This document shows positions 18,467-54,625 of a DNA stretch of 64,000 bases, one piece after another. Each line of letters starts with the position of its first letter. The first letter of the stretch is position 1. A program made the position numbers and the translations under genes. Source of the DNA: Aequorivita viscosa (GTDB lineage: Bacteria > Bacteroidota > Bacteroidia > Flavobacteriales > Flavobacteriaceae); assembly GCF_900106795.1 (NCBI RefSeq), contig NZ_FNNS01000011.1, positions 47,620 through 111,619 of the forward strand, written 5' to 3'. Below the pieces are notes generated by a model. That model was given only the letters and a program-made list of their open reading frames with translations. It searched no databases and was not told the origin of the DNA.

Positions 18467-19132
18467 TTACCATTCAATCGGGGTTTTCCCATGCGCTTTT
18501 AAATATGCGTTGGCTTTGCTAAAGTGCTTATTCCCGAACCAATAACCACGATTTGCCGCCAATGGAGATGGATGTCCACTACTAAGCACCAAATGTTTTG
18601 ATTCGTCAATTTTTCTGCCTTTCTTTTTCGCTGGGCCACCCCAAAGCATAAAAACCAAGCCTTCGCGTTCTTCAGATAGTTTTTGAATTACAACATCTGT
18701 AAACTTTTCCCAACCCTTGTTTTGATGACTTCCTGCCTGATGTGCTCGAACAGTTAATGTAGCATTAAGCATTAACACACCTTGATCTGCCCATCTTGCC
18801 AAATTTCCGTGCGTTGGAATAGCAATACCAACATCAGTCCTAAGTTCTTCAAAAATATTTTTAAGAGACGGTGGTATTTTAACATTTTCGTCTACAGAAA
18901 AACACAAACCGTGCGCTTGATCTGGTCCGTGATATGGATCCTGCCCTATCATAACAACTTTAACATCGTTAAAGGGAGCGTGATTAAAAGCTGAAAAAAC
19001 CTTACTGGCCGGCGGGTAGCAAGTATTCGACTCATACTCATTCCTAACGAATTCGGTTAATTCTTTAAAATAGGGTTTCTCAAATTCATCGTTTAAAACC
19101 TGTTTCCAACTTGCTTCAATAGTTACCTTCAT
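18467..19132 (-). CDS. ung: Uracil-DNA glycosylase, family 1
   Basis: A 221-aa enzyme that removes uracil from DNA. The catalytic water-activating motif GQDPYHGPDQAHG starts at residue 63 (Asp65) and the second motif HPSPLAA holds the catalytic His near 188. Length and motifs are complete. The start codon lies in a 39-base divergent spacer shared with mutS2, whose sequence nearly repeats the bcp|nth spacer 14 kb away. Confidence 0.97.
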   Translation of the reverse strand: MKVTIEASWKQVLNDEFEKPYFKELTEFVRNEYESNTCYPPASKVFSAFNHAPFNDVKVVMIGQDPYHGPDQAHGLCFSVDENVKIPPSLKNIFEELRTDVGIAIPTHGNLARWADQGVLMLNATLTVRAHQAGSHQNKGWEKFTDVVIQKLSEEREGLVFMLWGGPAKKKGRKIDESKHLVLSSGHPSPLAANRGYWFGNKHFSKANAYLKAHGKTPIEW

Positions 19133-19157
19133 TATCCTTACTTTTGTGTAAAATTAC
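19130..19157. promoter_or_regulatory. Bidirectional promoter ung|mutS2
   Basis: On the plus strand TACTTTTG (19139-19146) fits TAnnTTTG, 25 bases before the mutS2 start. On the minus strand TAATTTTA (19149-19156 complement) is a weaker -7 for ung. Over 28 bases, aligned from the minus-strand start codon, 24 positions equal the bcp|nth spacer at 33563-33590. Confidence 0.65.
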
Positions 19158-19171
19158 AAGAAACAAGACGA

Positions 19172-21331
19172 ATGGGGCGCATCGCTAGTAAAACATTGGA
19201 GGATTTAGAATTTCCATCAGTTCTCAAACAAATTTCGGAAGGCTGCGTAACGGCACCTGGAAAAGAACGGGTCCTTGCCATTACTCCTTTTCAGGATCTT
19301 TCTAAAATAGAGCCAGAACTCCAACGTGTAAAAGAATTTACGGCATCACTCAGTGGTGAAAATCAAATTCCAAATCACGGTTTTGATCCAGTTTTTAAGG
19401 AGTTGCATTTGCTCGATATAGAAAGGAGTACGTTAGAAATTTCAGGTTTTCGGAAAATTCTATCCATTTCAGAAACCACGCGTATTCTTCTAAAATTCTT
19501 TAAAAAATATGAAGAGTTTTATATTCACCTAAATTCATTTTCTGAACAAGTAAATCATACCTCTGCAGTCTCGGAAGCAATCAATCAAATAATTGATAAA
19601 TATGGTGAAATAAAGGATGATGCTTCGCCTGAATTAGCTAGTATTCGCCGCAGGTTAAATGGGTTAAAAGGAAAGATAAACGCTTCTTTTAACAGAGCGC
19701 TTTCGCAATATATTCAGAATGATTATCTCGATGAAATACGCGAATCGGTAGTTGAAAACCGCCGAGTGCTTGCCGTAAAAGCTATGCACCGAAAAAAAGT
19801 AAGAGGCGCTGTTTTGGGAACTTCAAAAACAGGAAGTATTGTTTATATCGAGCCTCAGGAATCTTTAGAATATGCCAACGAACTCAGCAATTTGCTGTAT
19901 GATGAAGATGAAGAGATTAAGCGGATCCTAAAAGCTCTAACAGAGTTTGTAAGACCTTACAAGGAACTTATAGGGAGCTTTCAGGATTATCTAATTTTGA
20001 TAGATACCTTTTATGCTAAGGCAAAATACGCTTCAAAAATAAATGGTGTACTTCCTATAATTACTTCAAAAAAACGGATTTCACTTATTAATGCATATCA
20101 CCCATTATTACTCGCTGCAAATAATAAACGTAACGAAAAAACCTACCCACAGTCCATTGATTTAGTTCCTGACAAAAGAATTATAGTAATATCTGGTCCA
20201 AATGCTGGTGGGAAAAGTATCACTTTGAAAACTGTAGGTTTACTTCAGGTTATGCTTCAAAGTGGAATACTCATTCCAGCCGATCCACAAAGCGAAATGT
20301 GGTTTTTTAAACGAATCTTAACCGATATTGGTGACAATCAATCTATTGAGAATCATTTAAGCACTTATAGTTACCGGCTTAAAAAAATGAATCAGTTTTT
20401 ACGAAAATGCAACGATAAAACGCTTTTTTTAATAGATGAATTTGGAACAGGAAGCGATCCTGAACTTGGAGGGGCTTTGGCCGAAACCTTTTTAGAGGTT
20501 TTTTATGAACGTAATGCTTTTGGAATAATTACGACTCATTACAGCAACTTAAAACTACTGGCTAATGAGCTGCCACACGCTATTAATGCGAACATGCAGT
20601 TCGATAGTAGAACATTAGAGCCTTTATACCAGCTACATTTAGGTGAAGCTGGGAGTAGTTATACTTTTGAAGTAGCCCAAAAAAACGGAATACCGTATAG
20701 CTTAATTAATAAAGCCAAGAAAAAGATAGAACGCGGCAAGGTTCGATTTGATAAAACCATTGCAAACCTTCAAAAAGAACGTTCTAATTTGAGGAAGACT
20801 TCTGAAACACTTAAAAATGAAGCAGAAAAAGCTCGACTTGGCAGCCGACAACTGGAAGAGGTTAATTCTAAAGTTCAAGAAAAATTAGAGAGCTATCAGG
20901 AGTTATATGATGCGAATCAAAAGCTAATTAGTCTTGGAAGAAAAGTGGACACACTGGCTGAAAAATATTTCAACAACAAACAGAAAAAACAGTTAATAGA
21001 TGAGTTGATGAAATTGGTTATGGTTGAAAACAGCAAACGCAAAAAACTGGCTCCCAAGGTCAAAAAAGCCGTTAAAGCTAAAAAAGTAGCCGTAATAAAA
21101 GAAGTAGAAAAGAAAGTAGAAGTTATACGCGAGCGCAAAAAAGAAGAAAAGGAAAAAGCAAAAAAACTGCCTCCACCGAAGCCAAAAGTTACCTTAAAAG
21201 TAGGTGATAGAGTAAGAATGTTAGAAGGTCGCGCAATAGGCACAATTGATACTATAGAGAAAAATAAAGCCTTTGTTAATTATGGAATGTTTACCACGAA
21301 CGTGAGTTTAGATGAATTAGAGAAAGTATGA
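19172..21331 (+). CDS. mutS2: MutS2-type ATPase without Smr domain
   Basis: A 719-aa MutS2-like protein. It begins with the MutS2 N-terminus (TLEDLEFPSVLKQISE) and contains the clamp domains, the Walker A GPNAGGKS (about 343-350), the Walker B region DEFGTGSDPELGGALAE and a long coiled coil (about 500-620). It ends with a small beta domain (KVGDRVRMLEGRAIGTIDTI). The C-terminal Smr endonuclease domain of canonical MutS2 (about 780 aa) is absent. Canonical MutS2 acts in recombination control or collided-ribosome splitting; the Smr-less form must act without that nuclease. The Lys/Val-rich segment at about 626-680 is low in complexity. Confidence 0.9.
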   Translation: MGRIASKTLEDLEFPSVLKQISEGCVTAPGKERVLAITPFQDLSKIEPELQRVKEFTASLSGENQIPNHGFDPVFKELHLLDIERSTLEISGFRKILSISETTRILLKFFKKYEEFYIHLNSFSEQVNHTSAVSEAINQIIDKYGEIKDDASPELASIRRRLNGLKGKINASFNRALSQYIQNDYLDEIRESVVENRRVLAVKAMHRKKVRGAVLGTSKTGSIVYIEPQESLEYANELSNLLYDEDEEIKRILKALTEFVRPYKELIGSFQDYLILIDTFYAKAKYASKINGVLPIITSKKRISLINAYHPLLLAANNKRNEKTYPQSIDLVPDKRIIVISGPNAGGKSITLKTVGLLQVMLQSGILIPADPQSEMWFFKRILTDIGDNQSIENHLSTYSYRLKKMNQFLRKCNDKTLFLIDEFGTGSDPELGGALAETFLEVFYERNAFGIITTHYSNLKLLANELPHAINANMQFDSRTLEPLYQLHLGEAGSSYTFEVAQKNGIPYSLINKAKKKIERGKVRFDKTIANLQKERSNLRKTSETLKNEAEKARLGSRQLEEVNSKVQEKLESYQELYDANQKLISLGRKVDTLAEKYFNNKQKKQLIDELMKLVMVENSKRKKLAPKVKKAVKAKKVAVIKEVEKKVEVIRERKKEEKEKAKKLPPPKPKVTLKVGDRVRMLEGRAIGTIDTIEKNKAFVNYGMFTTNVSLDELEKV

Positions 21332-21385
21332 GTAAAGTCGTAGTTGGCAGTATCAGTTAACAGCATCTTTTAAAATTACAATAAA

Positions 21386-21793
21386 TTGAAGCACATTGAA
21401 TCACATAAAATAATCTTGTTCGACGGCGTTTGCAACCTGTGCAATGGCGCCATCAACTTTGTTATAAAAAAAGACAAAAAGAACATTTTTAAATTCGCCC
21501 CGCTTCAAAGTGAGATTGGTGAGACCTTACTTTCAAAGTTTCAAATAGATACTTCCAACGTAGATTCTATTATACTGGTGGATGGTGAAAACTATTATGC
21601 CAAATCTTCAGCTGCCTTGCGTATTTCCAAAGAGCTATCTGGAGGTTATCCCCTACTTTATGGTTTTTTAATACTACCGAGGTTTATCCGAGATGCAGTT
21701 TACGACTACATTGCTAAAAACCGTTATAAATGGTTTGGGAAAAAAGAAAGCTGTATGATTCCAACACCAGAATTAAAAGAAAAATTCCTTTAA
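21386..21793 (+). CDS. DCC1-like thiol-disulfide oxidoreductase family (DUF393)
   Basis: A 135-aa protein with the family signature LFDGVCNLCNGAINFV, i.e. DxxCxxC (about 13-19), a thioredoxin-fold site. Basic and aromatic residues follow (KFAPLQS, SAALRISKELSGGYPLLY). No ATG is available upstream of the domain; TTG at 21386 is the probable start, again after a CAGT-type repeat. The start lies 55 bases beyond the mutS2 stop. The redox partner is unknown. Confidence 0.88.
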   Translation: MKHIESHKIILFDGVCNLCNGAINFVIKKDKKNIFKFAPLQSEIGETLLSKFQIDTSNVDSIILVDGENYYAKSSAALRISKELSGGYPLLYGFLILPRFIRDAVYDYIAKNRYKWFGKKESCMIPTPELKEKFL

Positions 21794-21800
21794 ACCTATT

Positions 21801-22097
21801 TTATTTTTCCACTCTAATAGCGTGCATTACTGGCTTTTTCTTCCATACAAAAGTATACACCCACATTAGCGTAAAGGTTGGCACAACGTCGGTAAAAGGC
21901 AATACCTCTTCAAGGAATACTATTACACTTGCTATTTTCCCTTCAGGGCCTTTGTACATTTTATGCATTTGCTTGGCCGCAATTGGAGCCCATAGCAAAT
22001 CGAAGAAAGGTCCAATTACAGGAATAAGAATGGAAATCATTCCTATTAAATCATAAATAATTCCGCGTTTGAGTAAATTATATTTTTCGTTTTCCAT
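21801..22097 (-). CDS. Small membrane protein, unknown function
   Basis: A 98-aa protein with two or three hydrophobic helices: DLIGMISILIPVIGPFFDLLW, IASVIVFLEEVLPFTDVVP and a TLMWVYTFVW segment. The proline- and acid-containing helices (FLEEVLPFTD) are unusual for simple membrane anchors and could line a polar site. The ends are basic. I do not recognise a named family. It is convergent with the DCC1-like gene (7-base gap) and 49 bases downstream of folE in the same direction, so cotranscription with folE is possible. Confidence 0.65.
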   Translation of the reverse strand: MENEKYNLLKRGIIYDLIGMISILIPVIGPFFDLLWAPIAAKQMHKMYKGPEGKIASVIVFLEEVLPFTDVVPTFTLMWVYTFVWKKKPVMHAIRVEK

Positions 22098-22146
22098 TTT
22101 GGATAAAACTATTTTTCCATCATAGATTCAAAAAATGTTCCAAAAA

Positions 22147-22746
22147 TTAAGAAAGGTCGTTGCTAATCAGTTTTAGAAATTCGTTTCTTGTCTGCAATGC
22201 TTCAAACTCACCACGAAACCCTGAAGTTGTAGTAACGCTATTCTGTTTTTGAACTCCGCGCATCATCATACACATATGCGAGGCTTCAATTACCACGGCA
22301 ACTCCTCTTGGTTTTAATGTGTCGTTAATACACTCTAAAATATCGTGTGTTAAGCGTTCCTGCACTTGTAATCTACGTGCAAAAACATCTACAACACGCG
22401 GAATTTTACTTAAACCAACAATATGTCCGTTTGGGATATAGGCAATATGTGCTTTTCCGAAAAATGGAAGAATGTGGTGTTCACAAAGCGAATACAATTC
22501 TATATCCTTAACGATAACCATATCGTGGTAACTTTCCTTAAACATTGCGCTTCTGAGTATTTCAGCAGGATCTTGGCAGTTTCCTGAAGTAAGGAATTGT
22601 ATAGCCTTTGCAGCTCTTTCAGGAGTTTTTACTATTCCTTCCCGTTCAGTATCTTCACCTATTGTTTTCAGAATGCTACTGTAGTTATCAGTCAGGCTGT
22701 CTGTAACTGGTTGATTGTATTCTTCAAAATACCTATATGACCCCAT
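22147..22746 (-). CDS. folE: GTP cyclohydrolase I
   Basis: A 199-aa enzyme converting GTP to 7,8-dihydroneopterin triphosphate, the first step of folate (and possibly queuosine-type deazapurine) synthesis. The zinc ligands are in [12 protein letters not shown] (Cys and His) and [12 protein letters not shown] (Cys). The [11 protein letters not shown] and TTSGFRGEF motifs are typical of the type IA enzyme. The N-terminal 20 residues are variable, as usual. Confidence 0.97.
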
Positions 22747-22874
22747 AATGTTTTAAGTTTCAATTAAAGTTCGATAGCCAAAAGTAAATCTATAAATTGA
22801 AAGCCAAAACTATATTCTTGTTTGAATTGCAGAATAAGGCTATAAATAGTACTTTCACAGCTTAAATATTAGGA

Positions 22875-23534
22875 ATGATAAAGGCTCAGAACATTCACAA
22901 ATATTATGACAACCTTCATGTTTTGAAGGGAGTGGACTTGCATATTAAAAAAAGTGAAATTGTTTCTATTGTTGGAGCATCGGGAGCGGGAAAAACCACT
23001 CTTTTGCAAATAATTGGTACACTTGATACGCTCCATGATGCAAGTAGTACACTTGTAATAAACGGAATAGATATAAACTCGCTTTCGGGAAAAAAGCTAG
23101 CTAAATTTCGGAATGAAAACTTAGGTTTTATATTTCAGTTTCATCAATTACTCCCCGAATTTACGGCTATTGAAAATATTTGTATTCCTGCATTTATAAA
23201 AGGTACTTCTAGATCTGAAGCCATTAAAAAAGCTGAAGAATTACTTTCATTTTTAGGACTTTCGCATCGAAAGAATCATAAACCTAACGAGCTTTCTGGA
23301 GGTGAACAACAACGTGTCGCCGTTGCCCGAGCCTTGGTTAATGACCCACCGATTATCCTGGCCGATGAACCCAGCGGTAATTTAGACACCGAAAGTTCCG
23401 AAAATCTTCACAATTTGTTTTTTAGGCTTCGCGATGAATTTGGTCAGACGTTTGTGATTGTTACCCACAATAAAGATCTTGCGAATATGGCCGATAGAAA
23501 GTTGGTTATGCGGGATGGAATAATTGCTGATTAA
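22875..23534 (+). CDS. ABC transporter ATPase, LolD/MacB-type
   Basis: A 219-aa ATPase. Walker [10 protein letters not shown] (about 36-44), Q-loop QFHQLLPEF, signature [15 protein letters not shown], Walker [12 protein letters not shown] and the H-loop VTHN are all present. It belongs to the LolD/FtsE/MacB group, and LolD (release of outer-membrane lipoproteins) is the usual annotation for this gene in Bacteroidota. No LolC/E permease is adjacent; the partner must be encoded elsewhere, so the specific role is inferred. Confidence 0.88.
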
Positions 23535-23603
23535 CCTATTCATTTCAATACTAGAACCATAGCATTACAACAAAAAAACATTTATACTAAAGAATTAAGT
23601 GAT

Positions 23604-24368
23604 ATGAATCAACTTCCTCTAAAAGAGTTTCTTGAAGAAAAAGTTATTCTGTACAACAATTCCGATTTTATTGAATCTGATCCAATTCAAATTCCTCATT
23701 TATTTACGCTAAAAGAAGACATTGAAATCGCCGGGTTTTTGGTGGCAACTATTGCTTGGGGAAATCGAAAAAGCATTATCAAGAACAGCCATCAATTAAT
23801 GGAACGGATGGGTAATTCTCCTTATGACTTTGTTATGAATTATACAGATAATGATTCTGAATTATTGTCAGGTTTTGTCCACCGCACCTTCAATAGTGAT
23901 GACCTTTCCTATTTTATTAAATCGCTTCAGAATATTTATACAAATCACGGCGGATTAGAAAACATCTTCAACTCAAATAAGGGAGCGGATTCGCTTCAAG
24001 AAGCAATTCATAAATTTAAACACGTATTTTTTGAGCTTCCACATTTAGGGCGGACGCAAAAACACGTGAGCGATCCGATGAAAAATTCGGCTGCCAAACG
24101 GATTAACATGTATTTGCGTTGGATGGTTCGAAACGATAATGCCGGTGTAGATTTCGGAATTTGGAAAAACATTTCTCCTGCCCTATTATCTTGTCCGTTA
24201 GACGTTCATAGCGGAAATGTTGCTCGTAAATTAGGTTTGCTTAAGAGAAAACAAAATGACGCTAAGGCCCTAAACGAATTGGACGCCTCATTGCGATTGC
24301 TCGATGCACAAGATCCAGTTAAGTATGACTTCGCTTTATTCGGTCTCGGTGTTTTTGAAGGATTTTAA
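23604..24368 (+). CDS. TIGR02757 family protein
   Basis: A 254-aa protein conserved in Bacteroidota and some other phyla. Recognised by LKEFLEEKVILYNN at the start, the helical middle with VATIAWGNRKSIIKN, the HLGRTQKHVSDP segment and LDVHSGNVARKLGLL near the C-terminus. The all-helical pattern and the PLDVHSGNVAR segment recall helix-hairpin-helix DNA glycosylases with their catalytic Asp, but a glycosylase role is only an inference. It lies 69 bases after the ABC ATPase, in the same direction. Confidence 0.8.
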   Translation: MNQLPLKEFLEEKVILYNNSDFIESDPIQIPHLFTLKEDIEIAGFLVATIAWGNRKSIIKNSHQLMERMGNSPYDFVMNYTDNDSELLSGFVHRTFNSDDLSYFIKSLQNIYTNHGGLENIFNSNKGADSLQEAIHKFKHVFFELPHLGRTQKHVSDPMKNSAAKRINMYLRWMVRNDNAGVDFGIWKNISPALLSCPLDVHSGNVARKLGLLKRKQNDAKALNELDASLRLLDAQDPVKYDFALFGLGVFEGF

Positions 24369-24458
24369 GTCAATCCCTATTTCCCTTGAAAATTTAAAAT
24401 TTTTGATTACCAAAATTGCCTAAAATGTTGTACTTTTATCGGCAATCTTTAAACGATT

Positions 24459-25706
24459 TTGTTTTTGGATAGCCCCACAAAAAGAAAACAATACGTGATA
24501 AAACCACCTATTCCCTCTGATGAAAAGCAACGCCTTGCAGCGGTGCGTTCATACCACCTTCTAGACACCCTTCCAGAGAAAGATTTTGATAATATAACAG
24601 CCCTAACTGCTAGTATTTGCGATACTCCCATAGCTTTAGTTACCCTATTGGATACGGACCGTAATTTTCTTAAATCTCATTACGGACTCGCATTTAATGA
24701 AGCGCCAAGGGATACTTCTTTTTGCGGACACGCTATTTTGGAAGAAACTGATGTATTTGTAGTTGAAGATGCGAGAATAGATCCTCGATTTGAGAAAAAT
24801 CCGCTTACAACCAATATGCAAGCTGTATTTTATGCAGGTGCCCGTTTGGTAAATTCTGATGGGTTTTCTTTAGGAACCCTTTGTGTATTCGATACCAAGC
24901 CAAGAACTATTACGTCTAAGCAACGAAGAGCGCTTACTGCACTCGCCTACCAAGTAGTAAACCTGTTTGAGGCAAGAAAGCACAACAGGATGTTGTTGGC
25001 AGCGCAAGAAGAGCTTAAAGAACGCAACGAAGAGCTTAAAAGTTTTGCAGGAATCGTTTCCCACGATATGAAAATGCCTTTGGCAAATATGATTATCACC
25101 TCCGATATGCTGCACGCAAAATACGGGAACGTTTTAGATGCACAAGCAAAAAAATACCTAGATTATATTAAACAGTCTTCATTTACTTTAAGCGAATATA
25201 TCTCTGGATTACTAGAACATTACGAAACAGACAAAACTATTTCTAGTATAGCAGAAACTTTTGACAGCCAAGACCTTATTGAAGAAATCATTGAGTTATT
25301 AAATATTAATATCGATTGTGAAATTAATCTTCCAGAGGAAAATATTGAAATGCAGGCCAATAAGTCGGCTCTAGAACAAATTTTCATCAATCTAGTAGGT
25401 AACAGTCTAAAGTATAACGATAAGGATAAGATAAAAATTGATATTGACTGCTTTGAAAAAGATGATGTTTATTATTTTTCGATTTCTGACAATGGAATGG
25501 GTATTCCTGAAGAAGAGTTAAGCAATATTTTTGACCTTTTCGGAACAATTGGAGTTCTTGATAGAAATGGGGTAAAAGGAAATGGCATTGGCCTTTCTAC
25601 AGTAAAGAAATTGATAACAAAATTGGGAGGGGAAATTGAAATTTTCTCAACTTTGGGAGTTGGTACTACTTTTAAGTTTTCTATTCAGAAAAAAATTATA
25701 GTTTAA
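24459..25706 (+). CDS. GAF-domain sensor histidine kinase
   Basis: A 415-aa soluble kinase. A GAF domain (about 25-165) includes SFCGHAIL and GARLVNSDGFSLGTLCVFD. A HisKA dimerisation helix carries the phosphoacceptor His near 202 in SHDMKMPLAN, and an HATPase domain follows, with N-box FINLVGNSLKYN and glycine boxes DNGMGIP and GNGIGLS. No membrane segment is present, so it senses a cytoplasmic signal. The frame lacks an ATG before the domain; TTG 24459, TTG 24465 or GTG 24495 are possible starts. No response regulator is adjacent; the one at 36.7 kb lacks its output domain. Confidence 0.9.
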   Translation: MFLDSPTKRKQYVIKPPIPSDEKQRLAAVRSYHLLDTLPEKDFDNITALTASICDTPIALVTLLDTDRNFLKSHYGLAFNEAPRDTSFCGHAILEETDVFVVEDARIDPRFEKNPLTTNMQAVFYAGARLVNSDGFSLGTLCVFDTKPRTITSKQRRALTALAYQVVNLFEARKHNRMLLAAQEELKERNEELKSFAGIVSHDMKMPLANMIITSDMLHAKYGNVLDAQAKKYLDYIKQSSFTLSEYISGLLEHYETDKTISSIAETFDSQDLIEEIIELLNINIDCEINLPEENIEMQANKSALEQIFINLVGNSLKYNDKDKIKIDIDCFEKDDVYYFSISDNGMGIPEEELSNIFDLFGTIGVLDRNGVKGNGIGLSTVKKLITKLGGEIEIFSTLGVGTTFKFSIQKKIIV

Positions 25707-25731
25707 GGTAATCCCGTTTATGTACTTCGGA

Positions 25732-25764
25732 TTTGATATTATTACATAACCTTTTTTATCTTTG
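25732..25764 (+). promoter_or_regulatory. Promoter of the BatA-like gene
   Basis: TTTG (25732-25735) and TATCTTTG (25757-25764) are separated by 21 bases, matching the -33/-7 pattern of Bacteroidota sigma-ABfr promoters. The ATG follows 16 bases later. Confidence 0.75.
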
Positions 25765-25780
25765 AAAAATAATCTTAGGA

Positions 25781-27703
25781 ATGCTGTTCAAATACCCAGA
25801 AGTTCTATACGCCCTCTTTTTACTTCTCATCCCGATATTTATTCACCTATTCCAACTTAGGCGCTTTCAACGCGTTGAATTTACCAATGTTGCTTTTTTA
25901 AGAAAAGTAACCATTCAAACCCGAAAAAGTTCCACAATTAAAAAATGGCTAATCCTACTAATGAGGCTTTTTGCGCTTGCCTGTATCATTATTGCATTTG
26001 CTCAACCCTTTACAGCCTCCAAAACCGCTTTAAATTCGAAAAAAGAAACCGTTATCTATATTGATAATTCCTTTAGTATGCAAGCCAAAGGAAGTAGCGG
26101 CAGTTTACTTGATAGAGCCGTACAAGACCTTTTTGATAAAGCCGGACAAACGGAAAAATTAACTTGGTTTTCAAACGATTCCGAACGACTAAACAGTTCT
26201 TCGCAAGACTTTAAAAACGAAATTCTCGCTGTTGGGTACTCTCAAAATCAATTGGCGCCATCACAAGTATTAATGAAAGCCGATCAACTTTTCTCTCAAG
26301 AAAAGGATGTTTTAAAACAATTAATCTTTATTTCCGATTTTCAACAAAAAGAAGCTTTTCCAGACATATCTCAAAATATTAAAGTAGATGCTGTACAGGT
26401 AGCCCCTGTAAAGGCTACAAATATTACCATAGACAGTGTTTTCGTTGTTTCAAAAAATGCCACAACAACTCAGTTGCAGGTAAATGTTTCAAAACAAGGC
26501 GATGCGATTTCAGAAGTGCCTATTTCGCTTTTTAATAATGGCAAACTAACTGCAAAAACAGCCGTAGATTTATCTCAAAATTCGACTGGTACAATCACTT
26601 TCGACATAGACGCTTCTGAAACATTTAATGGCAAATTGGAGCTTTCCGAGGTCAATATGCCATTCGACAATAGTTTATTTTTCAGTATAAACAGACCAGA
26701 AAAAATTAAGGTTTTAGCCATTAATGGAGCAGATGGTAATTTCCTACAACGCCTATTTGAAAAGGAACGTTTCCTATTTAAACAACAAACATTTAAAACG
26801 CTGGATTACAATCAGATTCCCGATCAGAATTTCATTGTTTTGAATCAATTACAAGATATTCCAAACTCATTAGCAACAGCTTTAAAGTCCTTTAGTGATG
26901 CTGGTGGTAGCGTATTGATAATTCCATCGCGCGACGCTGTTTTGAACAGTTACAACAGCTTTCTTGCTATGATGAATATAGGGGTGTTTTCGGAAGCACT
27001 GCAACAAGAAAAAAAGATTACCAAAATTGTTTTTTCTCATCCGTTGTTTCAAGGCGTATTCGAAAAAGAAGTAGTGAATTTTCAATATCCAAAGGTCAAT
27101 TCTATTTACGGTATTAAAACCACGGCTGCCCCTGCCCTAATTTTTGAAGACTTACGGCCTTTTTTACTTCAGAAGGATAAAACCTATTTATTCACCGCTG
27201 CTATAGACACCGAAAACTCCAATTTTATAAATTCACCTTTAGTCGTGCCAACTATTTACAATATGGGCTTGCAGAGTTTACCTTTGCCTAATTTGTACTA
27301 TGTAATTGGAGGTCAAAATACATTTGGCGTGCCAGTGCAATTGGGCCCAGACCAAATATTGGCAATGAAAGACAGCATTTCTCAATTTATTCCAAGACAA
27401 CAAACCAAAGCGAATCACGTGCTAATTACGACAATCGACGAACCTAAAAAAGCCGGTAGTTATGAATTAGTTCGGGACAATGAAGTTTTACAAACAGTGA
27501 GTTATAATTACTCTAGGAACGAAAGCAAATTAAACTATTTGAATGCTGCAGACTGGGAAGGTGCTAATTTACACAATTCGATTAACGATCTGTTCGATTC
27601 ACTTTCAGAAGCGAATGCAATCAATAGTTTCTGGAAATGGTTTGTTATTTTTGCATTGTTCTTTTTACTTTGTGAAATGCTCATTTTAAAGTTTTTGAAA
27701 TAA
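25781..27703 (+). CDS. BatA-like membrane protein
   Basis: A 640-aa protein with the BatA/aerotolerance N-terminal region: two membrane helices (about 5-24 and 57-77) flanking the conserved FQLRRFQRVEFTNVAFLRKV. A degenerate VWA-like domain follows, in which TVIYIDNSFSMQAKG takes the DxSxS position as DNSFS. A large extracytoplasmic region and a final membrane helix (about 617-637) complete it. Homologues occur in Bacteroidota next to dihydroorotase-like genes. A scaffold or stress role is generally presumed but not shown. Confidence 0.88.
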   Translation: MLFKYPEVLYALFLLLIPIFIHLFQLRRFQRVEFTNVAFLRKVTIQTRKSSTIKKWLILLMRLFALACIIIAFAQPFTASKTALNSKKETVIYIDNSFSMQAKGSSGSLLDRAVQDLFDKAGQTEKLTWFSNDSERLNSSSQDFKNEILAVGYSQNQLAPSQVLMKADQLFSQEKDVLKQLIFISDFQQKEAFPDISQNIKVDAVQVAPVKATNITIDSVFVVSKNATTTQLQVNVSKQGDAISEVPISLFNNGKLTAKTAVDLSQNSTGTITFDIDASETFNGKLELSEVNMPFDNSLFFSINRPEKIKVLAINGADGNFLQRLFEKERFLFKQQTFKTLDYNQIPDQNFIVLNQLQDIPNSLATALKSFSDAGGSVLIIPSRDAVLNSYNSFLAMMNIGVFSEALQQEKKITKIVFSHPLFQGVFEKEVVNFQYPKVNSIYGIKTTAAPALIFEDLRPFLLQKDKTYLFTAAIDTENSNFINSPLVVPTIYNMGLQSLPLPNLYYVIGGQNTFGVPVQLGPDQILAMKDSISQFIPRQQTKANHVLITTIDEPKKAGSYELVRDNEVLQTVSYNYSRNESKLNYLNAADWEGANLHNSINDLFDSLSEANAINSFWKWFVIFALFFLLCEMLILKFLK

Positions 27704-27818
27704 GTTACAAGTAAGCTTGTACTTGTTTCGTATGAACGGATTAATTTGTTGAATTTCGAGATAATTGAGAATCAATTCCACCGAGTTAAGGCCTTCTAAA
27801 TTGATATAGAATAGTTAT

Positions 27819-29075
27819 ATGAAAATAGTATTAAAATCCGCAACTATAGTCGATTCCTCGTCAGCCCACCACGGAAAACAGCGTGATGTTCTAATTGTGA
27901 ATGGTACAATTGAGAAAATAGCCAACTCAATTCCTGCAGCAGATGGCATAAAGGAAATTTCCTTGAAAAACCTTCATATTTCACAAGGTTGGTTCGATAG
28001 CAGTGTTTCATTTGGCGAACCTGGATTTGAAGAGCGCGAGAATATTGATAACGGTTTAAAAACTGCGGCTTATAGCGGTTTTACAAGCGTTGCGGTAAAT
28101 TCAAATAGTTATCCCGTTGCAGATAGCAAAGGGCATATAAAATTTCTTAAATCGAAAGCCGAAAACAATGCTGTAAACCTTTACCCTATTGGCGCTCTTA
28201 CATTTGGCGGCAAAGGCATTGATTTAGCAGAATTGTACGATATGAAAAGCGAAGGCGCCATATCATTTTACGATTATAAAAACCCAATTGCCAATGCAAA
28301 CTTATTAAAAATTGCACTACAATATTGCCAAGGTTTCGACGGCCTGGTTCAATCGTTTCCTTTTGAAAAATCAGTTGCCCGAAACGGCGTGGTTAATGAA
28401 GAATTAAGCGGAACACGTCTTGGGTTAAAAGGAATTCCAGCACTTTCAGAAGAACTCCAGATTATCCGAGATTTGTACATTTTGGAATATACAGGCGGGA
28501 AACTTCATATTCCTACCATTTCAACTAAAAAGTCTGTTGCGCTAATTAAAGATGCTAAGAAAAAAGGATTAAATGTAAGTTGCAGCGTTTCAATTTTTAA
28601 TCTTGTATTGACAGATAGCGTTTTGGAAGATTTTGATACAAACTACAAACTCCTCCCTCCTTTGCGCACCAATGAAGATGTTAAGGCTTTGATTAAAGGC
28701 CTTAAGGATGGCACCATCGATGGCGTTACAAGCGATCACAATCCTTTAGATGTGGAACGGAAAAATGTAGAATTTGACAGAGCTGACTTTGGTAGCATCG
28801 GACTAGAAAGTTGTTTTGGAGCGCTCAACAATATTTTGGGAGTTGATAAAACCATAACAGCACTTACAAGATTAAAAGGTGTATTTGGTATTCCTGAGGT
28901 GAAAATTGAAGAAGGTAAAATTGCCGAACTTACACTTTTTACTCCCGATGAAACTTGGACGTTTACTAAAGATGATATAACCTCTACTTCAAAAAACGCT
29001 GCCCTTCTAGGAGCAAAATTAAAAGGAAAGGCGTACGGAATAATTTCAAATAATAACTTGGTTTTAAACACATAA
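27819..29075 (+). CDS. Dihydroorotase-like amidohydrolase with lost metal site
   Basis: A 418-aa protein of the type I dihydroorotase family. The N-terminal metal motif is degenerate: where active enzymes have DxHxHxRxPG, this protein has FDSSVSFGEPG (Asp60, Ser62, Ser64), so both histidines are gone. The later TSDHNPLD motif is kept, and CSVSIFNL replaces the CExTPHHL type, losing another His. It is therefore probably catalytically inactive, like the PyrC' pseudo-dihydroorotases that serve as structural partners of aspartate transcarbamoylase. A separate active enzyme should exist elsewhere in the genome. It overlaps the next gene as TAATG. Confidence 0.85.
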   Translation: MKIVLKSATIVDSSSAHHGKQRDVLIVNGTIEKIANSIPAADGIKEISLKNLHISQGWFDSSVSFGEPGFEERENIDNGLKTAAYSGFTSVAVNSNSYPVADSKGHIKFLKSKAENNAVNLYPIGALTFGGKGIDLAELYDMKSEGAISFYDYKNPIANANLLKIALQYCQGFDGLVQSFPFEKSVARNGVVNEELSGTRLGLKGIPALSEELQIIRDLYILEYTGGKLHIPTISTKKSVALIKDAKKKGLNVSCSVSIFNLVLTDSVLEDFDTNYKLLPPLRTNEDVKALIKGLKDGTIDGVTSDHNPLDVERKNVEFDRADFGSIGLESCFGALNNILGVDKTITALTRLKGVFGIPEVKIEEGKIAELTLFTPDETWTFTKDDITSTSKNAALLGAKLKGKAYGIISNNNLVLNT

Positions 29076-29395
29076 TGAAGAACTCCCTTTCAGGAAAATC
29101 GACCGCTTTGATTGCTTATGCACCGTTCGTCGGATTTTTTATAGCATTTTTTCTAAATGAAGATAAACGTGACCCTTTTGTTACTTGGCACGTTAAAAAT
29201 ATGTTTGGGATATTTCTGCTATTTGTTTCTGCAATGGTAGTGCAATCAGCAATCGATTATACAGTTGGAGATTTACTTTGGGTTGTATGCTTTATTCTTT
29301 GGGTATACTGTGGGATTCAAGCCTATAGAGGGCAAACCAAAGGAATTCCTTTTTTAAGTGAAAAGTTTCAAAAATGGTTTTCTTTTTTGAACTAA
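29075..29395 (+). CDS. DUF4870/Tic20-like small membrane protein
   Basis: A 106-aa protein with three hydrophobic helices and the family-like segment DPFVTWHVKNMFGIFLL between the first and second. Termini are basic. It overlaps the dihydroorotase-like gene by one base, so the two are translationally coupled. Function is unknown. Confidence 0.75.
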   Translation: MKNSLSGKSTALIAYAPFVGFFIAFFLNEDKRDPFVTWHVKNMFGIFLLFVSAMVVQSAIDYTVGDLLWVVCFILWVYCGIQAYRGQTKGIPFLSEKFQKWFSFLN

Positions 29396-29484
29396 GGATG
29401 CATATCTCAATTTAAACACTTCAATTTTTTTAGACTATTAACAAATAAGACCGAATGTGAAAGGTCTTGCTTATTTTTGCTTTT

Positions 29485-30141
29485 ATGGAAAAGAAAAAAC
29501 TACAATTAGAACACAATTATAGAGCAGCGCAAAATCCGTCAGGAAAACCGCCAGCTATAATTATGCTACACGGATTTGGCAGCGACGAGAACGATTTGTT
29601 TTCATTTGCAAGCGAATTACCCAGCCAATATGCAATCTTCTCTTTAAAGGCCCCTATCAAGCTGCAACCATACGGAAATGCGTGGTACAACATCTATTTT
29701 GACAATTCACAAGGCAAATTTAGCGACGATGAACAAGCAATTGAATCGCGAGAGTTAGTTTCAAAGTGTATCGATGAAATTATAGAAAAATATCAAGTGG
29801 ATAAAAACAATATTACACTCTTAGGATTCAGTCAGGGTACAATTTTGAGTTTTTCGGTTGCTTTAAGCTATCCAGAAAAAGTTAAAAATGTGATTGGACT
29901 AAGCGGCTATATAAATGAAGAAATATTGAAGTCTGGCTATGAGAACAACGACTTCAGTAATTTAAACGTATATACTTCGCACGGCACTGTAGATCAGGTT
30001 ATCCCTGTGCAATGGGCTCAGAGAACAAAACCTTTTTTGGAAAACTTAAATATTGATTGCAAATATTCTGAATTTCCTGTCGGTCACGGTGTAGCACCTC
30101 AGAACTTTCAGGAGCTTAAAGAATGGCTGGCCAAGCACTAG
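29485..30141 (+). CDS. Carboxylesterase/lysophospholipase-type alpha/beta hydrolase
   Basis: A 218-aa serine hydrolase of the phospholipase/carboxylesterase family. The oxyanion motif is LHGFGSDENDL, the nucleophile lies in LGFSQGTI, the Asp in GTVDQVIPV and the His in VGHGVAP. The start MEKKKLQLEH (29485) fits the family better than the upstream in-frame ATG at 29467. TATTTTTG at 29472-29479 lies only 5 bases before this ATG; if used, the transcript would be nearly leaderless. No signal peptide, so the enzyme is cytoplasmic. Confidence 0.9.
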   Translation: MEKKKLQLEHNYRAAQNPSGKPPAIIMLHGFGSDENDLFSFASELPSQYAIFSLKAPIKLQPYGNAWYNIYFDNSQGKFSDDEQAIESRELVSKCIDEIIEKYQVDKNNITLLGFSQGTILSFSVALSYPEKVKNVIGLSGYINEEILKSGYENNDFSNLNVYTSHGTVDQVIPVQWAQRTKPFLENLNIDCKYSEFPVGHGVAPQNFQELKEWLAKH

Positions 30142-30217
30142 CAGTACTATTAGGTTTCGGAAATTGTAATTGAGATTGTTATATTTACTTCTCATATATT
30201 TCGAAACCTAATCCTCT

Positions 30218-30712
30218 TTAATTTGGATATATCAAGGAAGCTATTGTATTCAAAGTTAATTCTTCGTCTTTACTAATAGAATATTCTAGTACCATTTCGC
30301 CCCAATATGTGCCATCGGTGAAGTCTGCTAAAATCCATTTGTGGTTTAAAAACTTCACTTTATTAACTTTCATGTCACCATTCATTCCAGCAAAAGGGAC
30401 TAACGGATTATTGCCTTTCAGCGCATTTTGATCGTAAATTTGATTGGAAACGAGCGCTTCTATATCGGCAGCATCATATCCAAAACTCTCTAAGTATGTC
30501 ATTGCATTTTCATTTCCAAGCAATGTAAAATAGTTTAGGTCGTTGTTTTTTTCCTTCAACTCTGCAATGGTCTTTTCAGCATTTTCAACCTTAGCCCTTA
30601 GATTTTCAATTTTCATTTCTTGGGCTTCAAAAATGGTTTTTTCGTTCATATACTGAAAAATTATCAGCAGGAGCGTAAAAAGGAATAAATAAAGAAATAT
30701 CTGACGTCTCAT
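30218..30712 (-). CDS. Membrane-anchored coiled-coil protein, unknown function
   Basis: A 164-aa protein with one N-terminal membrane helix (IFLYLFLFTLLLIIFQYM), a coiled coil at about 24-60 (EAQEMKIENLRAKVENAEKT) and a C-terminal beta-rich domain (about 95-164) with YWGEMVLEYSIS. The layout suggests a bitopic protein with its globular part in the periplasm. It starts 2 bases after the MBL hydrolase stop, so the two are coupled. I do not recognise a named family with certainty. Confidence 0.75.
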   Translation of the reverse strand: MRRQIFLYLFLFTLLLIIFQYMNEKTIFEAQEMKIENLRAKVENAEKTIAELKEKNNDLNYFTLLGNENAMTYLESFGYDAADIEALVSNQIYDQNALKGNNPLVPFAGMNGDMKVNKVKFLNHKWILADFTDGTYWGEMVLEYSISKDEELTLNTIASLIYPN

Positions 30713-30714
30713 TC

Positions 30715-31491
30715 TTAAATAGTTATAGTTAGTGTATCGTATGCAAGATGTACATTTTCTGGAAGCTTTTTCTCAACTTCTTCATGAAAACCCATAAGGT
30801 GACTAATATGCGTTAAATAGGCTTTTTTAGGTTTCACTTTATCAATAAAATCGAGTGCTTCGGATAAGGTAAAATGCGAATAGTGGGGTTCTTCCCGTAA
30901 TGCGTTAATAACCAGCACATCGGTTCCTTTAACTTTTTCAATTTCTTCGGGAACAATTGTTTTTACATCTGTTAAATAGGTGAAATTATCTATTCGAAAG
31001 CCTAAAACAGGCAATTTGTCGTGATAGGCTTCAATGGTAACAATTGTTTTGCCACCAATGGTAAAAATTGAGTTTTTATCTATTTCTATTTCTTCTATAT
31101 CGGGGGCGCCGGGATATTTGTTTTCCTTGGTAAAAACGTATTCAAAGCGTTGGTGAAGCGCTTTAAAAACTCGTTTATGGGCATAAAAAGCCATTTTGCC
31201 CTGCATAAAGTTGAAAGGCCGTATGTCGTCTATTCCAGCCGTATGGTCGCTGTGTTCGTGTGTTAGCAGTATTGCATCAACTTTTGTCACATTTTCACGC
31301 AACATTTGCTGTCTAAAGTCAGGACCACAATCGATTACACAAGAATAATTATTCCAACGAACCCAAACTGAAACACGCAAACGCTTGTCTTTAGGATCGT
31401 TGCTCTTACAAACGGGGTGGTTGCTTCCAATTACGGGAATACCTTGAGAGGTTCCTGTGCCAAGAAATGTTACTTTAATTTTCGAGTTCAT
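30715..31491 (-). CDS. MBL-fold metallohydrolase (PhnP/RNase Z-like group)
   Basis: A 258-aa metallo-beta-lactamase-fold hydrolase. It has the N-terminal FLGTGTSQGIPVIG, the metal motif LTHEHSDHTAGIDDIRPFN, then YLTDVKT and the C-terminal LTHISHLMGFH. These match the phosphodiesterase-like branch (PhnP, RNase Z) rather than beta-lactamases. The physiological substrate is unknown; a cyclic phosphodiester is plausible. It is cotranscribed with the coiled-coil gene downstream. Confidence 0.85.
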   Translation of the reverse strand: MNSKIKVTFLGTGTSQGIPVIGSNHPVCKSNDPKDKRLRVSVWVRWNNYSCVIDCGPDFRQQMLRENVTKVDAILLTHEHSDHTAGIDDIRPFNFMQGKMAFYAHKRVFKALHQRFEYVFTKENKYPGAPDIEEIEIDKNSIFTIGGKTIVTIEAYHDKLPVLGFRIDNFTYLTDVKTIVPEEIEKVKGTDVLVINALREEPHYSHFTLSEALDFIDKVKPKKAYLTHISHLMGFHEEVEKKLPENVHLAYDTLTITI

Positions 31492-31607
31492 CTGCATTTA
31501 AGGTTTACAATTCGTAAAAAAGATTGAACGCTATTCAGAAAGATTTCGAATGTATTAGAAAGGAATAAATTTACTGGTCTCATTCCCGCAAAAATAAAGT
31601 TATTTTT

Positions 31608-31637
31608 TTTGTTTGCCTACGCTATTCACTACCTTTG
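31608..31637 (+). promoter_or_regulatory. Promoter of the 484-aa unknown gene
   Basis: TTTG (31608-31611) and TACCTTTG (31630-31637) with an 18-base gap fit the Bacteroidota promoter pattern; the ATG at 31662 follows 24 bases later. This places the start at 31662 rather than at the in-frame ATG 31635, which would lie inside the -7 element. Confidence 0.75.
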
Positions 31638-31661
31638 TTAGCGATAAAACGGAACACTACT

Positions 31662-33116
31662 ATGCCCAATACGATAATAGGAGATAAGGAATTTCAGGAA
31701 ATTCCCTCCATAAAAAGTAAGGCTTTAAGAATCAATCTGAACGAGAACATTTACGGTAGTTTTGCCGAGATTGGTGCCGGGCAGGAAACAGTGCGTAATT
31801 TTTTTAGAGTTGGGGGTGCTTCTGGTACCATCGCGAAGACCATGTCTGCTTACGGCAAAGACTTCAGCGATGCCATTTATGGAGTCGAGGATGATGGAAG
31901 ATATGTTACTGAAGCAAGGCTTACTAAGATGCTCTCTCACGAAATTAATCTTATCGAAGAGCGAATTAATCGTGAAACCAATCCGAATAAATTGTTTTTT
32001 TCGTATGCAAATACGGTTACAACAATAGATTTTGCTAAGCAATACAAAGGCCATGGTTGGGTTGGAATACGTTATCAGGTTGATCCTAATGAAGATTATA
32101 ATGAAATAACGCTTCATATACGTTTTCACCAAAATGATGCACAGCTTCAACAAATTACCTTAGGAATTTTAGGCGTAAACTTGATTTATGGTGCATATTA
32201 CAAATACGATCATCCAAAGAAATTACTTAGGTACCTCTACGATCACATCGATAAAGATTCGTTAGAAATAGATACAATCAACTTTTCCGGCCCCCGTTTT
32301 AAAGATGTTGATAACCGATTAATGAGTCTTCAACTTATTAAAAATGGTATGACCGATGCTGTAATGTTTGGACCTGACGGCTATAATATTCTTCCAGCAA
32401 AAATTCTTTATAAAAAGAATATACTTGCTTTTAGAGGCAGTTTTAGACCTGTAACCAATGTAAATATTGATATGTACGAACAGGCCTATGAGTTATTTCT
32501 ATTGGAAAACAGGGTTAAAGAAGAACGAACAGAGGTGATTTTTGAAATAACCCTTTCAAATTTAAGGGCTACAGGCGAAATTGACGAAGAAGACTTTCTG
32601 GATCGTGCAAAACTACTCTGTAATCTGGGTCATACAGTGATGATATCAAATTTTCAAGAATATTATCGATTGGTTGAATATTTTGCGCGCTACACAAAAA
32701 TGCGAATGGGTCTGGCCATGGGCGTTAATAACCTAATCGATATTTTTGACGAAAAGTACTATCGCCATTTAAGCGGTGGTATTTTAGAAGCTTTTGGAAA
32801 ACTATTTTACAAAGATCTAAAAGTGTACCTCTACCCTATGAAAGATTTAAAAACAGGGGAATATATAAATAGCAAAAACTTGAAGGTTCATCCACGAATG
32901 AAGGAACTCTACAAGTTTTTTAAATACAACGGTAGGCTTGTTGATATTGCCGACTACAACCCTGAATTTCTGGATATATTTTCGCGCGACGTTCTTCTTA
33001 AAATTGAAAAAGATGACGACGGTTGGGAAAAAATGCTGCCAGAAGGTGTTTCGGAAATCATTAAAAGTAAAAAGCTATTCAATTACCGCCGTTCGCTTAA
33101 AGATATTGGAAACTAA
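31662..33116 (+). CDS. Large conserved-looking cytosolic protein of unknown function
   Basis: A 484-aa protein beginning MPNTIIGDKEFQEIPSIKS. Distinctive parts are the N-terminal EIGAGQETVRNFFRVGGASG (about 37-56), a central GPDGYNILPAKILYKKN and a helical C-terminus ending KKLFNYRR. There is no signal peptide and no long hydrophobic helix, so it is cytosolic. Relatives in Flavobacteriaceae are, as I recall, sometimes labelled TonB-dependent receptor, but nothing here supports an outer-membrane barrel. It has its own strong promoter and overlaps the convergent bcp stop by 4 bases. Confidence 0.8.
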   Translation: MPNTIIGDKEFQEIPSIKSKALRINLNENIYGSFAEIGAGQETVRNFFRVGGASGTIAKTMSAYGKDFSDAIYGVEDDGRYVTEARLTKMLSHEINLIEERINRETNPNKLFFSYANTVTTIDFAKQYKGHGWVGIRYQVDPNEDYNEITLHIRFHQNDAQLQQITLGILGVNLIYGAYYKYDHPKKLLRYLYDHIDKDSLEIDTINFSGPRFKDVDNRLMSLQLIKNGMTDAVMFGPDGYNILPAKILYKKNILAFRGSFRPVTNVNIDMYEQAYELFLLENRVKEERTEVIFEITLSNLRATGEIDEEDFLDRAKLLCNLGHTVMISNFQEYYRLVEYFARYTKMRMGLAMGVNNLIDIFDEKYYRHLSGGILEAFGKLFYKDLKVYLYPMKDLKTGEYINSKNLKVHPRMKELYKFFKYNGRLVDIADYNPEFLDIFSRDVLLKIEKDDDGWEKMLPEGVSEIIKSKKLFNYRRSLKDIGN

Positions 33117-33565
33117 TCCAATATCTGTGCAGCGTGATCCTTGGTTTTTACTTTCTCAATAACACGTTCTACAATACCTGTTTCGTCTATTATAAACGTC
33201 ATACGATGAATTCCGTCGTACGTTTTCCCCATAAACTTCTTTGGCCCCCAAACCCCAAACGCATTGAGCACTTCTTTATTTTCATCGGCCAATAAAGGGA
33301 ATGGAAGTTTGTGTTTCTCTTTAAAGTTTTTCTGACGCTTTTCACTGTCGGCACTTACGCCTAAAAGCTCGTAACCTTGTTTTTGAAGTTCTTCATAATT
33401 GTCACGAAGGTTACAAACTTCATTTGTACAACCTGGGGTACTAGCTTTTGGATAGAAAAAAACAATCCATTTTTTACCTTTATAATCTTCAGAACTGATA
33501 CTGTTTCCGTCTTGGTCGTTAACTTTGAAATTTGGTACCTTGTCGCCTGATTTTAATGTTTGCAT
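33113..33565 (-). CDS. bcp: Thioredoxin-dependent thiol peroxidase (BCP/PrxQ peroxiredoxin)
   Basis: A 150-aa peroxiredoxin reducing hydrogen and organic peroxides. The active site is FYPKASTPGCTNEVCNLRD, with peroxidatic Cys (GCT) and resolving Cys five residues later (VCN), the atypical 2-Cys BCP arrangement. The start MQTLKSGDKVP (33565) is the family start; the in-frame ATG at 33643 would extend into nth. It is divergent from nth over a 31-base spacer. Confidence 0.95.
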   Translation of the reverse strand: MQTLKSGDKVPNFKVNDQDGNSISSEDYKGKKWIVFFYPKASTPGCTNEVCNLRDNYEELQKQGYELLGVSADSEKRQKNFKEKHKLPFPLLADENKEVLNAFGVWGPKKFMGKTYDGIHRMTFIIDETGIVERVIEKVKTKDHAAQILD

Positions 33566-33590
33566 AATCCTTATTTTTGTATAAAAGTAC
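33563..33590. promoter_or_regulatory. Bidirectional promoter bcp|nth
   Basis: TATTTTTG (33572-33579) is the -7 for nth, 17 bases before its ATG. The complement of 33584-33591 (TACTTTTA) is a near -7 for bcp. The 28 bases align with the ung|mutS2 spacer at 24 positions with no gap. Confidence 0.65.
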
Positions 33591-33596
33591 TTCAAA

Positions 33597-34256
33597 ATGA
33601 CCAAACAAGAAAAAGTAAAATTTGTTATTGAAACATTGAACAAACTTTATCCTCAAGTACCGATTCCTTTAGACCACAAAGATCCTTACACACTGCTAAT
33701 TGCGGTTCTCCTCTCGGCTCAAAGTACAGATGTACGGGTAAACCAAATAACTCCGTTGCTTTTTGAAGTTGCTGACAACCCGTACGATATGGTAAAATTA
33801 TCTGTTGAAGAAATTCGTGACATTATTCGGCCAGTTGGATTGTCACCTATGAAATCAAAAGGTATTCATGGGCTCTCTCAAATATTGATTGATAAATACG
33901 ATGGAAAAGTGCCTGCCGATCTTGAAGCGTTAAAAACATTTCCAGCGGTTGGACATAAAACAGCGAGCGTAGTAATGAGTCAAGCTTTTAATATTCCCGC
34001 ATTTCCAGTAGACACCCATATCCACAGAATGATGTATCGTTGGGGACTCTCTAATGGTAAAAATGTAGTGCAAACCGAGAAGGACGCGAAACGTTTATTC
34101 CCCGAACATAGTTGGAATCTATTACACCTTCAAATGATATGGTATGCGCGCCAATACTCACCTGCTCGTGGCTGGGATTTAGATAAGGATATTATCACTA
34201 AAACTATTGGAAGAAAGAGTGTTATCGACGATTACCTAAAGAAGAAAAAGAAGTGA
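33597..34256 (+). CDS. nth: Endonuclease III-like DNA glycosylase lacking the 4Fe-4S cluster
   Basis: A 219-aa glycosylase/AP lyase that removes oxidised pyrimidines. The helix-hairpin-helix ends in PAVGHKTASVV with the catalytic Lys (about 122), and the catalytic Asp is in VDTHIHRMMYRW (about 140). In E. coli Nth four C-terminal cysteines hold an iron-sulphur cluster. This protein has no cysteine anywhere; the corresponding stretch reads WYARQYSPARGWDLDKDI and continues to a Lys-rich end. The cluster is therefore absent, while the catalytic residues remain, so activity is expected. Confidence 0.92.
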   Translation: MTKQEKVKFVIETLNKLYPQVPIPLDHKDPYTLLIAVLLSAQSTDVRVNQITPLLFEVADNPYDMVKLSVEEIRDIIRPVGLSPMKSKGIHGLSQILIDKYDGKVPADLEALKTFPAVGHKTASVVMSQAFNIPAFPVDTHIHRMMYRWGLSNGKNVVQTEKDAKRLFPEHSWNLLHLQMIWYARQYSPARGWDLDKDIITKTIGRKSVIDDYLKKKKK

Positions 34257-54587: not shown

Positions 54588-54595
54588 TAAATTTG
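54588..54595 (+). promoter_or_regulatory. -7 element deciding the start of the 131-aa gene
   Basis: TAAATTTG matches TAnnTTTG. It overlaps an in-frame TTG at 54593, so that codon cannot be the start; ATG 54626, 30 bases downstream, is used. Confidence 0.6.
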
Positions 54596-54625
54596 GGTAA
54601 ATTTAAATTAAGAATACATCAAGAA

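Follow-up and report, generated by a model that had tools for sequence, protein, structure and literature searches.

Probable compact bidirectional promoters of the Bacteroidota type in two near-identical divergent spacers of Aequorivita viscosa, ung|mutS2 and bcp|nth

Bidirectional promoters have been described by Warman, Grainger, and colleagues in Escherichia coli and Salmonella, where the two transcription starts lie 7–25 bp apart by definition (PMC10268837; this and the following works are cited from excerpts). Starts are commonly spaced by 18, 10, or 23 bp, and bidirectional promoters are stated to occur in all prokaryotes (PMC12825309), so that the kind is already known. The sigma-A promoter of Bacteroidota is of the −33/−7 type, TTTG/TAnnTTTG (PMC6847099; PMC9723704), with the −33 TTTG element much less evident in Flavobacterium johnsoniae (PMC6847099). 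The TAnnTTTG box occupies positions −12 to −5 in F. psychrophilum (PMC9723704) and F. johnsoniae (PMC6847099), and leaders have a median length of 24 nt in the former and exceed 10 nt in 87% of cases in the latter. In the flavobacterium Zobellia galactanivorans, adjacent genes on opposite strands are co-expressed in 55 segments (20%), which has been tentatively attributed to closely spaced divergent promoters (PMC5613140). Our literature search brought up no study of bidirectional core promoters in Bacteroidota; PMC5613140, as far as its excerpt goes, mentions divergent promoters just as one conceivable explanation of co-expression. Here we consider a window of 64,000 nucleotides from Aequorivita viscosa (family Flavobacteriaceae; contig NZ_FNNS01000011.1 of a 3.54 Mb assembly with 62 contigs), in which two divergent gene pairs, ung|mutS2 and bcp|nth, are situated 14 kb apart and are separated by intergenic spacers of 39 bp (19133–19171) and 31 bp (33566–33596), respectively.

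Direct alignment bears out the claim of a preliminary description of this DNA that two 28-mers (Table 1), each starting at the CAT of the minus-strand gene, share 24 of 28 positions without gaps; on either side of the 28-mers the similarity of the two loci drops off. The same description took them for 28-base spacers, and here it needs amending: the 28-mers are real, but they include the start codon of the minus gene together with most of the intergenic DNA, and the true spacers are those given above. It was right in assigning a good −7 box to the plus genes, which have a perfect TAnnTTTG in both spacers, and a weak one to the minus genes, where the Bacteroidota sigma-A box is present only loosely, i.e., one base off. 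The four gene products named there agree with Pfam as well, where they match the families UDG, MutS domain V, AhpC/TSA, and HhH-GPD. Both spacers contain the plus box, a gap of 2 bp and then an opposed minus box TAnnTTTA, the 18 bp cores being TACTTTTG-TG-TAAAATTA in ung|mutS2 and TATTTTTG-TA-TAAAAGTA in bcp|nth, and thus core elements for both directions lie in one short stretch. In this genome TAnnTTTG is a genuine signal of promoters: of 544 upstream regions, each 100 nt long, 183 contain it, compared with 28 of 663 control stretches within genes. We consider it fairly probable that the two spacers are compact bidirectional sigma-A promoters of the Bacteroidota type, which would resemble each other through a shared layout plus chance. 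In each, the TAnnTTTG box of the plus gene sits within the putative leader of the minus gene, the opposed TAnnTTTA box of the minus gene starts 2 bp past it, and the plus direction has the better box. Since the box position is known from the two flavobacteria cited above, all four starts can be placed tentatively; those of each spacer would lie about 7 bp apart, and RNA polymerase would then occupy one direction at a time. The near-identity is probably due to the same order and spacing of start codon, AT-rich leader, box, 2 bp, and opposed box, with a few chance matches. The use of both boxes, the location of the starts, and the mutual exclusion of the two directions are predictions from sequence.

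Compared with the bidirectional promoters of E. coli and Salmonella, as far as these are covered by the excerpts, the two spacers have in common a short pseudo-symmetrical core and putatively overlapping polymerase sites, at which one binding event excludes the other, and the predicted distance between starts, 7 bp as judged from the box positions, would fall within the 7–25 bp range of the definition. They differ in employing a TAnnTTTG box where the others have TATAAT, and in that the presumed 7 bp is not among the common distances of 18, 10, and 23 bp. With the Bacteroidota sigma-A promoter they share the perfect plus −7 box and predicted leaders of 12–21 nt, whereas the minus boxes end in A, the −33 element is not clear, and two promoters are interlocked. 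In Zobellia, according to the excerpt, which contains no promoter sequences and nothing on the four genes considered here, divergent promoters were tentatively deduced from expression segments. Given the co-expressed divergent neighbors of Zobellia, some coupling of expression within each gene pair is plausible by analogy, whereas for a coupling between the two pairs the evidence speaks against it.

Table 1. Positions in the window of the two 28-mers, their −7 boxes, and the flanking genes.
Feature	Position	Strand	Description
First 28-mer	19130..19157	none	ung start codon, leader, two opposed −7 boxes; 24/28 identical to 33563-33590
Second 28-mer	33563..33590	none	bcp start codon, leader, two opposed −7 boxes; 24/28 identical to 19130-19157
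−7 box for mutS2	19139-19146	+	TACTTTTG; perfect TAnnTTTG; predicted start near 19151, leader ~21 nt
−7 box for ung	19149..19156	-	TAATTTTA (19156 to 19149); one base off TAnnTTTG; predicted start near 19144, leader ~12 nt
−7 box for nth	33572-33579	+	TATTTTTG; perfect TAnnTTTG; predicted start near 33584, leader ~13 nt
−7 box for bcp	33582..33589	-	TACTTTTA (33589 to 33582); one base off; predicted start near 33577, leader ~12 nt
ung	18467..19132	-	uracil-DNA glycosylase, 221 aa; ORF; Pfam UDG 1.1e-15
mutS2	19172..21331	+	719 aa; ORF; Pfam MutS_V (MutS domain V) 1.9e-32
bcp	33113..33565	-	bcp-type peroxiredoxin, 150 aa from ATG at 33565; ORF; Pfam AhpC-TSA 1.6e-42
nth	33597..34256	+	endonuclease III family, 219 aa; ORF; Pfam HhH-GPD 1.9e-21

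Comparison of 28 Aequorivita genomes, this one included, shows that the layout is conserved and that the gap between the boxes has changed at one locus independently of the other. At bcp|nth, 26 of the 28 genomes carry opposed boxes, 25 of them with a gap of 2 bp and one with 3 bp, and the two genomes without the pair have an altered plus box. In ung|mutS2, both boxes are present in all 28 genomes, and the gap amounts to 2 bp (2 genomes), 6 bp (3), 13 bp (1), 17 bp (21), or 18 bp (1); the two genomes with 2 bp are this one and its sister G002 (tree support 98/90). As the gap varies at ung|mutS2 and the boxes stay, the ung and bcp spacers are identical at 24 of 28 positions in these two genomes only and at 15–20 positions in the other 26. 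Beyond a gap of about 9 bp, the divergent transcripts would be expected to overlap at their 5' ends. In the three congeners at loci L017, L023, and L028, the opposed boxes of the ung spacer are both perfect and are separated by 6 bp, and mutS2 begins at least about 100 nt away.

Outside the genus, ung gaps of 2, 6–8, and 12–14 bp occur, and gaps of 9–10 bp are seen in a wider set. One set of loci from outside the genus comprised 20 regions from 13 genomes, a subset of those found. Among the best 80 of 577 ung loci, with mutS2 found near ung in 69 by a simple pattern, the 2 bp gap is present at five, all outside Aequorivita (L157 from Marinirhabdus, L165, L167, L211, and L216). On a tree of 49 rows (7 genomes plus the first 42 of the 80 loci, some genomes appearing twice), rows with a 2 bp gap do not form one clade; three changes are needed, and well-supported branches require two of them, with no distinction made between gain and loss of the 2 bp gap. 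On that tree the ung gaps cluster at 2, 6–8, 12–14, and 17–18 bp (loci L001–L030 and L138–L217), and in many genera the plus box keeps an offset of 9 relative to the ung start. For a wider set, 83 ung rows were collected, of which 17 were left out because TAnnTTTG was missing from the part searched or the spacer tail was too short, and the remaining 66 reduced to 52 distinct tails. Of these 52, 40 have an opposed YAAAnnTA no more than 30 nt from the plus box, compared with 5.3 ± 2.2 (maximum 11) in shuffles, a contrast that is no probability as the rows are related, and mutS2 is not the neighbor in all of them. In several lineages the ung minus box is a perfect CAAAnnTA. The corresponding shuffle test for bcp|nth retained 5 of 30 rows after length filtering and is not relied on.

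How general the layout is was judged from a pooled sample of 1.66 Mb taken from three Aequorivita genomes (this genome, G016, and G002), in which genes were called with a simple codon-score script, so that starts and counts are approximate. Opposed boxes with the last base relaxed occur at seven divergent sites with a gap of 2 bp, and at 0–4 sites for every remaining gap length between 1 and 24 bp; all seven are from this genome, two being the spacers studied here. In a search of the genome, opposed boxes at a 2 bp gap give 10 forward and 8 reverse matches, with 6 and 1 for the control. Opposed boxes 1–7 bp apart, at least one of them strict, are present in 14 of 219 divergent spacers, i.e., in 10 of 120 here, 4 of 54 in G016, and none of 45 in G002. 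Just 5 of these 14 spacers are shorter than 100 bp, and in the others the boxes are far from at least one gene. Nine of the 28 flanking proteins were scanned with Pfam and comprise PdxA, a lumazine-binding protein, an iron-dependent repressor, a TonB receptor, LuxC, a 4Fe-4S protein, an aromatic amino acid lyase, a redoxin-domain protein, and an Lrp/AsnC regulator. The neighbors of opposed boxes are not a repair set, although the redoxin domain constitutes a redox link. The layout is thus recurrent in this genome, whereas the notion of a preferred compact divergent promoter of the lineage, also put forward in the preliminary description, is supported only weakly, with none of the 45 sampled G002 spacers showing opposed boxes 1–7 bp apart and all 2 bp sites of the sample lying in this genome. 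As a separate observation, strict boxes placed back to back (CAAAnnTA, then TAnnTTTG 1–3 bp on) occur at six divergent sites of the pooled sample, and opposed boxes are therefore not the sole compact layout.

The resemblance of the two spacers might also have other causes. In a start-anchored sample covering 862 kb of this genome (24%), with 608 upstream 28-mers and 184,528 pairs, 24/28 is the single top value and the next is 22 (5 pairs). If columns are taken as independent, about 0.015 pairs at 24 or more are expected in the sample, where one is observed, and about 0.25 in the whole genome, assuming 2500 starts; this null is too thin in its tail, as 26, 5.3, and 0.9 pairs are expected at 20, 21, and 22 identities and 55, 17, and 5 are seen. 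For a null of the same architecture, the leader, plus box, and minus box were each sampled separately from actual genes, and the two bases between the boxes came from a fixed mix. Its mean identity is 18.4/28 and P(≥24) = 0.0037, or 18.9 and 0.0065 when the minus box is required to end in A (60,000 draws per variant). On the best reading, the shared layout accounts for most of the match and the remainder consists in a few extra agreements. The surprise against this null is modest, and the pair came to notice through its extremity. Pure chance, by which the match would mean nothing beyond AT-rich upstream DNA, could draw on the genome-wide expectation and on the thin tail, and a coding stretch of the window (32732–32759, within a gene) reaches 22/28 to the second 28-mer and 19/28 to the first, so AT-rich composition readily approaches the motif. 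Nevertheless, the low expectation in the sample, the way in which recognized promoter parts follow each other at the same distances, and the conservation of box pairs at both loci across most or all of the genus make this very improbable. Equally doubtful is one common operator, by which a regulator of DNA damage or oxidative stress would co-control ung, mutS2, bcp, and nth. The four functions are related, the 18 bp core is weakly dyadic, and the identity recurs in the sister genome. The genome-wide search suggested in the preliminary description, run with a merged consensus of the 28-mers at up to 3 mismatches, returns the two known sites and no third, which would suit a dedicated operator but also tells against a shared regulator. 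A shortened consensus yields one extra site at 3 mismatches (L065), and TANNTTTKTNTAAAANTA is found at seven places in the genome (control, 3), with TTTG in the two studied spacers alone. A common operator should keep both likeness and spacing, which separate promoters need not; in the genus neither is kept, since 26 of the 28 genomes show the lower identity and the gap inside the presumed ung|mutS2 site ranges from 2 to 18 bp. A site shared by both loci is hence found in two of the 28 genomes and not in the relatives at large, the blocks that stay conserved belong to promoters or leaders, and elsewhere opposed boxes flank genes of other functions, one of the nine scanned having a redoxin domain. 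The shared regulator proposed in the preliminary description is thus disfavored by the genus comparison.

Recent duplication or gene conversion, copying one promoter into the other, is suggested by the near-identity and by the 14 kb between the loci, yet it has the smallest likelihood of the explanations considered, as likeness is lost on either side of the 28-mer in this genome, bcp|nth holds its layout in 26 of the 28 genomes, and the 2 bp ung gap is also present at five of the 80 loci, outside the genus and not as one clade, so that copying is not required. Somewhat more weight, though still little, might be given to the possibility that the plus box alone is a promoter and that the minus box belongs to an AT-rich initially transcribed region, with ung and bcp starting elsewhere. 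The minus boxes are indeed one base off, and TAnnTTTG, 2 bp, and YAAAnnTA also precede co-directional genes (2 of 66, compared with 6 of 85 divergent ones). This is opposed by the frequency of the opposed box at ung, far above that in shuffles, by its perfect form CAAAnnTA in several lineages, and by the sensible leader of about 12 nt that the minus box would give.

Several results weigh against bidirectional promoters whose likeness stems from layout and chance. The minus boxes end in A and are without the final G, and by eye no −33 TTTG element is clear upstream of either plus box. The sister genome G002 retains the 24/28 identity between its spacers, 24/28 is still within the top 0.4–0.7% of the same-architecture null, and 10 of the 49 tree rows are without a box pair under the pattern used. 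The excess of divergent sites at 2 bp is small and in part made up by the two studied sites themselves; relaxed sites of this kind do not occur in the 800 kb sampled from the two relatives, and strict opposed boxes at gaps of up to 20 bp occur 43 times genome-wide, compared with 45 for the reversed pattern, i.e., without excess. A wider claim is accordingly worded with reserve: it is conceivable, though unlikely, that Flavobacteriaceae hold a class of bidirectional promoters with opposed TAnnTTTG boxes 2–8 bp apart and starts 1–7 bp apart, at which polymerase would choose a direction and thereby couple repair pairs (ung/mutS2 and bcp/nth), and that evolution of the gap would tune the balance, with 5' ends overlapping above about 9 bp. 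For the two spacers themselves, what appeared to be a DNA-repair regulon now looks like an effect of layout, and they caution that near-identical compact spacers can emerge without a common regulator. As the spacers of ung|mutS2 and bcp|nth occur with many natural gap lengths, they would lend themselves well to tests of bidirectional promoters in Bacteroidota.

Some minor observations concern the start of bcp and other opposed boxes in this genome. For bcp, an alternative longer ORF extends to 33643 and begins at a TTG within nth. Perfect opposed boxes, TAAGTTTGTGCAAAGATA, are located beside the start of the gene for the iron-dependent repressor, which is divergent from the TonB receptor gene (L066 1501-1518; G000:C28:149588-149605), and TAAGTTTGTGCAAAGATA could double as an operator. 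A perfect palindrome, TAACTTTGCGCAAAGTTA, lies between the genes for the LuxC-like and 4Fe-4S proteins (L076 1501-1518; G000:C56:87832-87849). Within the window, TAAATTTGGGTAAATTTA at 54588–54605 is situated upstream of the gene for an Lrp/AsnC-type regulator, in a divergent spacer of 597 bp according to the script's gene calls.

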